A stretch of 62,290 nt of DNA, taken from Lachnospiraceae bacterium (lineage in GTDB: Bacteria; Bacillota; Clostridia; Lachnospirales; Lachnospiraceae). The notes beneath the pieces were generated by a model. It did not search any database. It had not been told where the DNA came from and saw only the letters and a list, made by a program, of their open reading frames with translations. Each line of letters begins with the position of its first letter. The stretch's first letter is position 1. Shown here piece by piece: positions 29,909-62,273 of the stretch. The position numbers were made by a program, and so were the translations under genes. The stretch is from contig JAFRVD010000039.1 of NCBI GenBank assembly GCA_017441825.1, forward strand, positions 1 through 62,290, written 5' to 3'.

Positions 29909-29931
29909 CCATTCTGACGGAGCTTTCGTCG

Positions 29932-29977
29932 CAACGGTCACTCCGTGAGCAGAAAATCCTCACTCCGTGATCCGTTG
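29932..29977 (+). repeat. Two 11-bp dyads 22 bp apart inside an outer inverted repeat
   Basis: TCACTCCGTGA occurs twice (29938-29948 and 29960-29970), a 22-bp period, and each copy is itself a dyad (TCAC-TCC-GTGA). Both lie between CAACGG (29932-29937) and CCGTTG (29972-29977). As RNA this could fold into a three-way junction; as DNA it could be a paired operator. It sits 24 bp past the lipoprotein stop. Confidence 0.5.
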
Positions 29978-30008
29978 CCTCCTCAGCTCCTGTGTACCGT
30001 AACACGCA

Positions 30009-30171
30009 GGCGGTCAAGGGAGGCCGTATGGATCCATGGAGGGGGCTCGGCGGTCTCGGCAGTTAATGAGGCAAGCGCGCAGCGCGCAGGCGAATTTAAT
30101 GCCGTTAGGGACACCGCCGCTGTGCGAGAGCAGTACCCCGGAGTGGACCATATGGACGACCGCAGCCCGCC
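30009..30171 (+). ncRNA. Structured repeat element, copy 1
   Basis: Closing helix GGCGG/CCGCC (30009-30013 with 30167-30171). Second helix CCGTATGG(A)TCCA with TGGACCATATGG (30024-30036 with 30144-30155). Inner helices are CTCG/CGAG, GCGGT/ACCGC and CGGCA/TGCCG. The run 30130-30155 is identical over 26 nt to 62005-62030 in copy 2, while inner helix sequences differ between copies but keep pairing. Strand is assigned by analogy with copy 2. No confident promoter was found for this copy. It is followed by a strong terminator hairpin. It could be a small RNA or a palindromic mobile repeat. Confidence 0.55.
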
Positions 30172-30183
30172 GTCACTATAGAA

Positions 30184-59966: not shown

Positions 59967-61673
59967 TTACGCCCTGACGGGCAGGATCACCGCCGATGGC
60001 GTCTTCCCGCCGTAGCACACCGTCTCTACAGCCGGCACCGTCTCACGGATGACCGACCAGACGCCCGCCTTGTTCGGGTGCACCGCGTACTCCGGGAAGT
60101 TCGACGAACTCACGTCCACACGGAGCCTCGAGCCTTTTTTCAGCATCCACGCCACGTCCCACGTTTCGATCCGGATCTTCACGAGCTCATTCGGCGTATA
60201 CGTGATGCGGTCCGGAGAGTCATTCCGGTACGCGAGAGTGGTGATGCCGTTCCGGATGTTGTAGGCCTCGCCGTTTTCAAAGACCTCCATGAGCTTTACG
60301 GTAAAGCAGGTGTCTTCGGCATCCGAACGTACATAGAGCTCCACGGCAGGCTTTCCGAGGATCGTGAGGTCTTCAGTGAGGGGCTCTGACACAAAGCTGA
60401 TAATATCCGGCCTTGAGTCGGGCCCCGGCTGCAGCCGCGAACCGACCTCCTGCTGGGACGCAAAGAGGGATTCCGCGCCGTGGGAACGCACCGGGTCCTC
60501 CGGGTCGTACGTGTAGCTGCGTTCAGCGGGCTCTCCGGGTTCAGGAAGAAGCGTGCCGCCCTCCCCCAGGTACAACCGTTTTTCGGCCTCAACCGGGACC
60601 GGATATTCGGGAAGCTCGATCCATTTGTCCGCGCCGATCACATACCAGCGGATCTTCCTTTCCGGCGTCTTCCCTTCCACGAGGATCTCGTAAAACCAGG
60701 CGAACATCTCCGGGACCTGTCTGCTCCACCCGTTCTGCTGGTCCGGGTGGCCGTAGATGGCCGGCTGGAAGCTGTGGTTCCACGGACCGATCTCAAGAGT
60801 AGACGTCCCGACGGCTTCCGGATTCAGTGCCGTGTAGCCGTGGAGGGCCGAGCCCAGATGGTGGTCGTACCAGCCTTCCACAATAAATACGGGATACGTC
60901 ACCTTCTCGGGAATTTCGCGGAGCTGCTTCCAGAGGCCTTCCTTCCAGTATTCATCAGTCCGCGACGTGTTCGTGATCCAGTCGCGGTACCACTGGAGTT
61001 TTCCGCCCCAGAGAGCTTCATCGACCTCGACCTGGGGCCGGTACGCAGCGCTTTCGAGGTAGTCCGCCTCGACCTTTCTTCCGGCGTTCCCCATGGCCCA
61101 GGCAGTCAGGATGTCCTGGCGGAACAACCCGTCCTTGTACGCAGAGGTGTGGCGGTTCGTGCCGTATACCGTGAGGTACATCGTTTTGAGCTTTTCAGGT
61201 ACAGCGTCCGCCATGATCCAGCCGGTGAACGCGAGGTAGCTGCCGCCCTGGTAGCCCATGACGAGGACGTCGTCGCGTGCTTCAAGGTATTGGAGGAGGG
61301 AGAGGCCATCGGCGCGGTCGTTGACGTTCGGTTCCCACACACCCTCGCTGCCGCCGGTGCCCCGGCACATCTGAAAGACGTAGGCGAAGCCCCGCTTCGC
61401 GTACTCGAGGGCCGTCGCGCGGCCGATCTCAATGTTATCCGCATAGCACGACCGCTGGACAATGGTTGGCCAGGCCTGCTTCTCCTTCGGCTTCGTGAAC
61501 CAGGTCCGGAGCCCGACCCCGTCTCCCGCGGGGAGCATCATCTCAGTGACCTCAATGTCCTCCTCCCCGTAGAGTACGGGGTACGGGAGGGCGTCGTAGG
61601 CCGCCTTCATCTCCTCCATCATCTTCGCTCTCCGGATATCGGTCTGGGAAAGCTCCTTTTTTTCTTCACTCAT
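59967..61673 (-). CDS. CocE/NonD family hydrolase
   Basis: A 568-residue alpha/beta hydrolase of the X-Pro dipeptidyl-peptidase/CocE group. The core begins TEMMLPAGDGVGLRTWFTKP, the nucleophile elbow is in GYQGGSYLAFTG, WYDHHLG and GPWNHSFQ come later, and a C-terminal jelly-roll domain (about 380-568, LPEYPVPVEAEKRLYLGEGG onward) follows. Members hydrolyse esters or act as acyl-peptide hydrolases or X-prolyl peptidases; a peptidase role would fit the peptide-use theme but is not shown. AGGGGGATAATAA supports the ATG at 61673. No signal peptide. Confidence 0.9.
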   Translation of the reverse strand: MSEEKKELSQTDIRRAKMMEEMKAAYDALPYPVLYGEEDIEVTEMMLPAGDGVGLRTWFTKPKEKQAWPTIVQRSCYADNIEIGRATALEYAKRGFAYVFQMCRGTGGSEGVWEPNVNDRADGLSLLQYLEARDDVLVMGYQGGSYLAFTGWIMADAVPEKLKTMYLTVYGTNRHTSAYKDGLFRQDILTAWAMGNAGRKVEADYLESAAYRPQVEVDEALWGGKLQWYRDWITNTSRTDEYWKEGLWKQLREIPEKVTYPVFIVEGWYDHHLGSALHGYTALNPEAVGTSTLEIGPWNHSFQPAIYGHPDQQNGWSRQVPEMFAWFYEILVEGKTPERKIRWYVIGADKWIELPEYPVPVEAEKRLYLGEGGTLLPEPGEPAERSYTYDPEDPVRSHGAESLFASQQEVGSRLQPGPDSRPDIISFVSEPLTEDLTILGKPAVELYVRSDAEDTCFTVKLMEVFENGEAYNIRNGITTLAYRNDSPDRITYTPNELVKIRIETWDVAWMLKKGSRLRVDVSSSNFPEYAVHPNKAGVWSVIRETVPAVETVCYGGKTPSAVILPVRA

Positions 61674-61717: not shown

Positions 61718-61747
61718 ACTATATCATACTGCTCCTGAAAAAGTCAC
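61718..61747 (-). promoter_or_regulatory. Putative promoter of the CocE-type gene
   Basis: On the minus strand GTGACT (61742-61747), an 18-bp spacer and TATAGT (61718-61723). It is moderately similar to consensus, about 45 bp upstream of the start. Confidence 0.45.
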
Positions 61748-61773: not shown

Positions 61774-61782
61774 TGCCATAAT
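61774..61782 (+). promoter_or_regulatory. Possible extended -10 promoter of structured element copy 2
   Basis: TG-C-CATAAT (61774-61782) is a 5/6 match to the -10 with a TG extension. The predicted start, near 61789, coincides with the 5' edge of the structured element. The -35 is weak. Confidence 0.4.
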
Positions 61783-61784
61783 CA

Positions 61785-62045
61785 GGCGGGCAAGGGAGGC
61801 CATATGGTCCATCGTCTTGCACAGCTCAACGATGATCAGCGGCGGAAAGGAGAAATGTGTCTCGGACGTGCGGATTCGCGAGGCTAACGGACAGTGAGAA
61901 GCGTAGCTTCGAACGTGCAGGAGCTGCAGCGAATAAGCCGCATGCGACGAGTAGGAAACGCAGCGTTAGCACGGAGAGACACATTTTCCTGACGCCGCGT
62001 TCGTGCAGTACCCCGGAGTGGACCATATGGCGACCGACATCCGCC
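61785..62045 (+). ncRNA. Structured repeat element, copy 2
   Basis: Nested helices: GGCGG/CCGCC (61785-61789 with 62041-62045), CCATATGGTCCA/TGGACCATATGG (61800-61811 with 62019-62030, 12 bp perfect), TGCAC/GTGCA (61818-61822 with 62003-62007), GCGGCG/CGCCGC (61839-61844 with 61993-61998), AAATGTGTCTC/GAGACACATTT (61853-61863 with 61976-61986) and CGTGC/GCACG (61867-61871 with 61969-61973). It is longer than copy 1 because of the inner arm. Its 3' conserved run is identical to copy 1. It could be a long structured small RNA or a palindromic transposable repeat. ORFs inside it are considered spurious. Confidence 0.55.
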
Positions 62046-62062
62046 GTCACTTACGCAGCAAC

Positions 62063-62094
62063 AAAAAAACCGGATCAGTGAAAACTGATCCGGT
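62063..62094 (-). terminator. Terminator of the tRNA-Ile2/tRNA-Val transcript
   Basis: CCGGATCAGT (62070-62079) pairs perfectly with ACTGATCCGG (62084-62093) around GAAA. On the minus strand it is followed by seven T residues (plus A-run 62063-62069). Confidence 0.93.
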
Positions 62095-62102
62095 ATGATG
62101 AG

Positions 62103-62175
62103 TGGGACCTACAGGTCTCGAACCTGTGACCTCCTGCGCGTCAGGCAAGCGCTCTCCCAGCTGAGCTAAGGCCCC
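62103..62175 (-). tRNA. tRNA-Val (anticodon GAC)
   Basis: On the minus strand the acceptor GGGGCCT pairs with AGGTCCC (one G-T wobble), with discriminator A. The anticodon arm CTTGC-CTGACGC-GCAGG exposes GAC, and the T arm is GGTTCGAGACC. It is transcribed after tRNA-Ile2 and followed by a strong terminator. Confidence 0.95.
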
Positions 62176-62199
62176 CTGTTCAATTTTAGGGGGATCGAG

Positions 62200-62273
62200 T
62201 GGACCTTCAGGGACTCGAACCCGGGACCGACCGGTTATGAGCCGGTTGCTCTAACCAACTGAGCTAAAGGTCC
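62200..62273 (-). tRNA. tRNA with anticodon CAT, probably tRNA-Ile2
   Basis: On the minus strand the acceptor GGACCTT pairs with AAGGTCC, with discriminator A. The anticodon arm is ACCGG-CTCATAA-CCGGT. The CTCATAA loop and GGACCTT acceptor resemble tRNA-Ile2, whose C34 is changed to lysidine by TilS to read ATA, as I recall from B. subtilis and E. coli. The alternative is elongator tRNA-Met. It is not the initiator type. Its promoter lies beyond the window. Confidence 0.85.

Follow-up and report, generated by a model that had tools for sequence, protein, structure and literature searches.

Apparently nested folded repeats in Lachnospiraceae: a conserved three-way-junction core in a probable MITE-like element

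Introduction

What kind of element is a 261-nt segment that folds back on itself beside two tRNA genes of a Lachnospiraceae bacterium: a structured RNA, or a mobile repeat? The segment (copy 2) lies near 61.8 kb of a 62,290-nt stretch of DNA (assembly GCA_017441825.1, contig JAFRVD010000039.1, positions 1 to 62,290), and this whole stretch is referred to here as the window. The initial annotation, made from the sequence alone, noted that the segment shares parts with a second locus at 30 kb (copy 1), and offered two readings: an RNA with a constant base and a variable arm, or a palindromic mobile repeat. Here, we compare the two copies with their relatives in the same genome and across the family Lachnospiraceae, using the name E1 for the shared element, and E2 and E3 for two further folded repeats found with it.

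Materials and Methods

The first alignment of E1 copies (A1) was misaligned and left out of the models. Model R1 was built from the copies C11:30008, C30, C81 and C94 plus the shortened copy on C54. A first set of 53 copies gave 43 trimmed cores, of which 39 were aligned with MAFFT alone (alignment A6), leaving out one core with an insertion and three others; the core model R2 was built from A6. For strand comparisons, 172 copies were reduced to 169 by removal of identical cores. Flanking genes were called simply as open reading frames with a minimum length of 100 or 110 codons, and four copies inside open frames were left out of the count of gene distances and orientations. For the comparison of five E1 sites of the window's genome we used its nearest relative, genome G010, as found by a search (76% identity) with the gene at 59967-61673, which we take to encode a hydrolase.

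Results

Two copies in the window

The segment 61785-62045 is the strong fold-back that had been proposed: with a few flanking bases (61780-62050), it folds at -121.1 kcal/mol (z -6.46), and none of 200 shuffles did as well. Copy 1 by itself has only modest stability (z -2.24), and 4 of 200 shuffles equalled it. The sharing between the two loci was confirmed, since the 3' strand GCAGTACCCCGGAGTGGACCATATGG is the same in every base at 30130 and 62005 and the outer arms pair in both copies. The inner arms, as also stated, are unrelated in sequence, that of copy 2 being the longer. The number of loci did not stand: allowing up to three mismatches, the 23-base 3' motif occurs at 10 places in the window's genome, several of them truncated, versus none for the reversed pattern. 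Features of both copies are listed in Table 1.

The idea that the two inner regions are variants of one arm of one RNA also had to be given up. The R2 core model scores 74.8 bits on copy 1 and has no match at the 61.8 kb copy. A genome search with the 116 inner bases of copy 2 finds just one further match, a separate relative at C93:22744 (82% identity over query positions 55-116) that lies outside any visible E1. Judged by its sequence, copy 2 is a chimera in which E3 sits inside the E1 arms and the E1 core has been replaced. E3 is also found free-standing at C93:22744 (locus L068, about 1331-1560). E2 has its own variable but paired outer stem and lies beside five E1 copies of the window's genome, in one case by its first half only (in the window and at L009, L010, L012 and L013).

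The initial annotation further placed copy 2 between oppositely transcribed units, with a possible plus-strand promoter at its 5' edge. Both sides carry minus-strand genes instead, with one at 59967-61673 and two for tRNAs at 62103-62273. No plus-strand promoter passes a consensus scan, whose sole hit (61747-61718) reads on the minus strand and precedes the presumed hydrolase gene.

Table 1. Coordinates of the repeat features and adjoining elements in the window
Feature	Position	Strand	Basis
5' arm of the E1 frame, copy 2 (GGCGGGCAAGGGAGGCCATATGGTCC)	61785..61810	+	Position; pairing with the 3' arm in the fold
Putative nested second repeat E3, in place of the E1 core (limits approximate)	61817..62004	+	C93:22744 relative lying outside E1; two conserved motifs, at 61849 and 61946; no E1 core there
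3' arm of the E1 frame, copy 2, containing GCAGTACCCCGGAGTGGACCATATGG, the strand in common with copy 1	62005..62045	+	Sequence match with copy 1; recurrence in the genome
GTCAC left of copy 2, possible target repeat; once also in the G010 empty site	61743..61747	.	By eye
GTCAC at the right end of copy 2, equal to 61743-61747	62046..62050	.	By eye
Copy 1, complete E1 (basal helix, conserved core and hairpin)	30008..30176	+	R1 match 30008-30175; R2 match 30033-30140, 74.8 bits
E2, further folded repeat 5' of copy 1	29916..29990	+	Sequence and fold
Terminator-like hairpin after the tRNA genes, adjoining the 3' end of copy 2	62069..62094	-	Predicted

A conserved core between changing arms

As seen in the 30 kb copy, the E1 core consists of a three-way junction, a stem with tandem G.A and a GNRA-type hairpin. 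Its consensus in A6 reads, from 5' to 3', CGGYACUUARYGAR, then a stem, then GARYUUAGURCCGYU, followed by a lower stem bulged on its 3' side and by the GNRA-type hairpin, with the basal helix closing the whole. The tandem G.A was found in all 39 cores of A6. A GNNA hairpin could be located in 138 of 169 E1 copies, and in 134 of these 138 its loop is of GNRA type.

Covariation lies above chance, as the structured reading had anticipated. Core pairs of A6 are formed in 88.9% of 817 cells, compared with 25.5-44.1% after shifting the partners by one, two or three columns, a comparison that favours the core structure in that it was derived from the very sequences tested. Two-sided changes occur at 17 of the 21 core pairs. 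None of 500 shuffles reached the covariation score of the core, and 22 of 500 reached its number of further pair types. The lower stem is paired in only 64.3% of cells.

In the folds of the first 53 copies, the basal helix changes in sequence from copy to copy and keeps its pairing. An orthologous pair of copies (L024 and L031b, with flanks about 85-90% identical) has almost equal cores and a basal helix that is altered on both strands and still paired. Among near-identical units of genome G215, three adjacent basal pairs vary; at two of these both bases always change together, and the third is paired in one case and unpaired in another. Across relatives, the core is the constant part of E1 and the long basal helix the changing one, the reverse of the constant base and variable arm first suggested. 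The L031b copy also has an insertion; at locus L031 (2000-2239), an E1 copy contains extra hairpins that its L024 ortholog lacks.

Distribution across the family

At E ≤ 0.001, R1 has six matches in the window's genome and finds E1 in 7 of 15 genomes of the genus and 19 of 397 genomes of the family. With R2 at the same threshold, 163 of 397 sampled Lachnospiraceae genomes (147 of 334 genera) were matched, so the further homologs whose absence was to have spoken against the element are many; about nine or ten candidates were scored per genome in these large searches and the counts are lower bounds, genome G041 being missed in the family search and matched in the class search. Ten of 391 genomes of the class were matched, all Lachnospiraceae, where absence outside the family means no close relatives, R2 having been trained on family genomes, some of them among those counted. 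In twelve genomes, picked because they had many copies or few contigs, the E1 matches number 15, 51, 18, 74, 19, 19, 14, 38, 4, 6, 16 and 34 (range 4-74).

A pattern scan of GTDB contigs gave at least 118 stretches. One match is to the isolate Falcatimonas sp. MSJ-15. Most of the 80 titled matches among those listed belong by title to Lachnospiraceae, to genera that we take to be part of it, or to unplaced Clostridia, and some to Eubacteriaceae, Clostridiaceae or Firmicutes; three are Muribaculaceae or Bacteroides, by title only. A viral element was considered and rejected, as it rested on one pattern match (L114) with the poorest fold energy per base among 91 matches and none with a stricter pattern.

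Some copies lie close together. Nearly identical tandem duplicates occur at L033 (1280-1430 and 1501-1651) and L063 (1317-1472 and 1501-1652). Among the matches listed for the twelve genomes, pairs within 600 bases were by eye divergent in at least 11 cases, convergent in none and tandem in at least two, and one convergent pair was seen 819 bases apart. A second set, which may share genomes with the first, has seven divergent, no convergent and one tandem pair within 700 bases. Such pairs are nearly always head to head (loci L122, L144, L167, L172, L183, L187 and L221). REP/REPIN sequences are likewise palindromic intergenic repeats, often in inverted doublets, with hairpins far shorter than E1. 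We rejected the inverted E1 doublet as one transposing unit, since the spacers of three doublets of genome G384 look unrelated.

Empty sites, ends and target duplications

E1 is MITE-like in being short, dispersed and multicopy, with no transposase gene of its own. In G010, the hydrolase-tRNA, rpmA-obg and secF-tgt spacers, with both neighbours matched, are without E1, and so are the sites after the MATE gene and after dut, with one neighbour matched each. By eye, copies in the window's genome have only short GTSACGG-like ends, and target duplications are not clear there.

The ends are better defined in genome G144, where the unit measures 197-206 bp with GGTAATTGCGAAACT-type inverted ends, both present in 11 of 12 copies. 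In these 11, the left and right flanks were compared for their longest common stretch, with one mismatch allowed. Its mean length is 8.0 bases, versus 5.6 in 110 mismatched pairings, and none of 20,000 permutations was as high; 4 of the 11 share at least 10 bases, the maximum in the control being 10. In this one genome, where they were tested, target duplications are about 8-12 bp. Among the 30 G144 loci read, out of 74 end-like sites, 11 have shorter units with the same ends, which look like internal deletions. One longer unit contains an ordinary metabolic gene, and no autonomous transposon with E1 ends was recognised in these loci. No recurrent neighbouring protein that could be a transposase-like partner was found among 133 E1 copies.

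Genome G215 has seven near-identical units; their right flanks show no evident relation to one another, and on the left some units remain alike for a few tens of bases beyond the unit. At L134, L141, L150, L161 and L205, E1 lies within a longer unit with GGTAATTGCGAAA-like ends and an extra conserved hairpin on the 5' side.

Strand bias and host transcription

The E1 strand folds better than its complement in 51 of the 53 first-set copies and in 111 of the 169 unique copies. In-helix G.U pairs in the 169 copies number 180:259 (E1 strand:other) in the outer helix and 141:126 in the core; there is no excess on the E1 strand, and the outer-helix excess on the other strand is weakly significant (p 0.015). 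The same method gave 21:10 for 12 tRNAs and 325:97 for terminator-like hairpins, a control inflated by their having been picked by plus-strand fold.

When the copies are separated by gene context, outer-helix G.U pairs number 60:36 where both flanking genes are on the plus strand (39 copies) and 42:89 where both are on the minus strand (50 copies), as compared with 16:36 for plus,minus flanks (19 copies), 17:22 for minus,plus flanks (15 copies) and 45:76 for the 46 of 169 copies with no usable gene context. In a sign-flip test of G.U pairs against host transcription over 89 copies at 79 loci, clustered by locus and not by genome, 0 of 20,000 permutations equalled the outer helix, while the core gave p 0.28. 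In the basal helix, G.U pairing goes with the direction of host transcription, an asymmetry that could come from transcription-linked mutation instead of selection.

Promoter-like matches (up to two mismatches) directed toward E1 were found for 6 of 154 copies versus 21, 11 and 4 in three control directions, and are not in excess. Median distances from the core are 104 and 121 bases to the ends of converging or upstream genes, and 156 and 230 bases to gene starts. In the window's genome about 9 of 10 copies, judged by eye, suggested an orientation locked to gene ends; this was rejected at 65 to 51 elsewhere (right neighbour).

Discussion

We consider it likely that the segment consists of nested non-coding interspersed repeats, E1 being a non-autonomous, MITE-like element of Lachnospiraceae that is co-transcribed with neighbouring genes, with E3 replacing its core at 61.8 kb. 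Of the two original readings, the palindromic mobile repeat is preferred because of the empty sites in G010 and the inverted ends and target duplications in G144. The two halves of an E1 of about 160-205 bp would form a long basal helix bearing the conserved three-way-junction core. The element would move as DNA, with a transposase presumably supplied in trans by another element, and would persist beside gene ends and terminators. It would be transcribed with the neighbouring gene and, whatever the orientation of its insertion, fold within the resulting RNA; at 61.8 kb, the second repeat would have taken the place of the core inside the E1 arms.

The other original reading, in the form of a gene for a stand-alone non-coding RNA, trans-acting or enzyme-like and multicopy by happenstance, is not supported, because promoters toward E1 are not in excess and the E1 strand has no G.U bias, unlike terminators and tRNAs. 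We regard it as very unlikely: the strong covariation of the core, the invariant tandem G.A, the GNRA-type loops and the better fold of the E1 strand in the first set all agree with it, yet the fold preference drops to 111 of 169 copies in the larger set, and E1 sites are empty in G010. Those same empty sites tell against the possibility, drawn by analogy with other folded repeats, that the host keeps E1 as an mRNA 3'-end element (a stabiliser, processing site or terminator). The nearness of E1 to gene ends, basal-helix G.U pairs that track host transcription and arms that stay paired would fit such a role; however, orientation is nearly free outside the window's genome, the G.U asymmetry of the core is not significant, and the conserved strand-specific core is left unexplained, so that we think it unlikely, if less so than an RNA gene.

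Movement through an RNA or single-stranded DNA intermediate, with the core as recognition fold or ribozyme, would account for a conserved core that tolerates nearly any basal helix, and the missing G.U bias agrees with it. GNNA hairpins and tandem G.A form stably in RNA and in single-stranded DNA alike. The inverted ends and target duplications of G144 nevertheless resemble double-stranded DNA transposition, none of the loci scanned matches a ribozyme or intron family in Rfam 15, and no enzyme recurs beside E1, which leaves this route very improbable. A chance palindrome, for which the modest stability of copy 1 alone might be cited, is practically negligible given the fold of copy 2 (z -6.46), the many homologs and the covariation.

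Against the preferred reading of a mobile repeat stand the failure to recognise an autonomous partner in the G144 loci and the indistinct target duplications of the window's own copies. A core conserved over many genera with GNRA-type loops also exceeds the needs of a plain MITE and points to a structure that is being recognised, perhaps by the mobilising enzyme or in some RNA-level function. One picture that we hold tentatively, and think rather doubtful, is of a family-wide parasite mobilised via its conserved folded core instead of conserved ends, in which the arms could be rewritten together, the ends could change and other folded repeats such as E3 could be hosted.

In line with the initial annotation, which recognised no named RNA family, Rfam 15, searched at the gathering score, has no match over the element in the window or at 23 other loci, and a known Rfam family was rejected as the identity of E1. 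We found no earlier description in the open-access literature or Rfam 15; E1 may be among the 3161 candidate RNAs that PMC8040213 lists in its supplements. By analogy, going by the published descriptions and without claiming membership in any of these families, E1 would work like the BOX, NEMIS and bcr repeats. BOX elements of Streptococcus pneumoniae, which the authors of PMC3049150 judged parasitic, are described there as small modular interspersed repeats that fold when transcribed; they are like E1 in their small size, inverted ends and target duplications, but have a different range and a varying number of inner boxB modules between constant ends, whereas in E1 the core is constant and the basal arms change. 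The NEMIS/Correia repeats of Neisseria, as described in PMC2229807, are short and non-autonomous with inverted ends, as E1 is, and are co-transcribed with their neighbours as long stem-loops; they differ in having constant ends, with RNase III processing proposed for them, against the changing basal arms of E1. In the Bacillus cereus group, the account in PMC3446304 describes intergenic repeat families (bcr1-bcr18), some MITE-like and some with conserved RNA folds, with about half of the copies inside mRNAs. By that description, they belong to another bacterial group, whereas E1 combines mobility and a conserved fold in one family.

Present in 163 of 397 sampled genomes with up to dozens of copies each, E1 places a folded sequence in many untranslated regions of major gut bacteria, and could easily be mistaken for a regulatory RNA in covariation screens. 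With its constant core and its freely changing yet paired arms, it lends itself naturally to testing how inverted repeats keep their complementarity.
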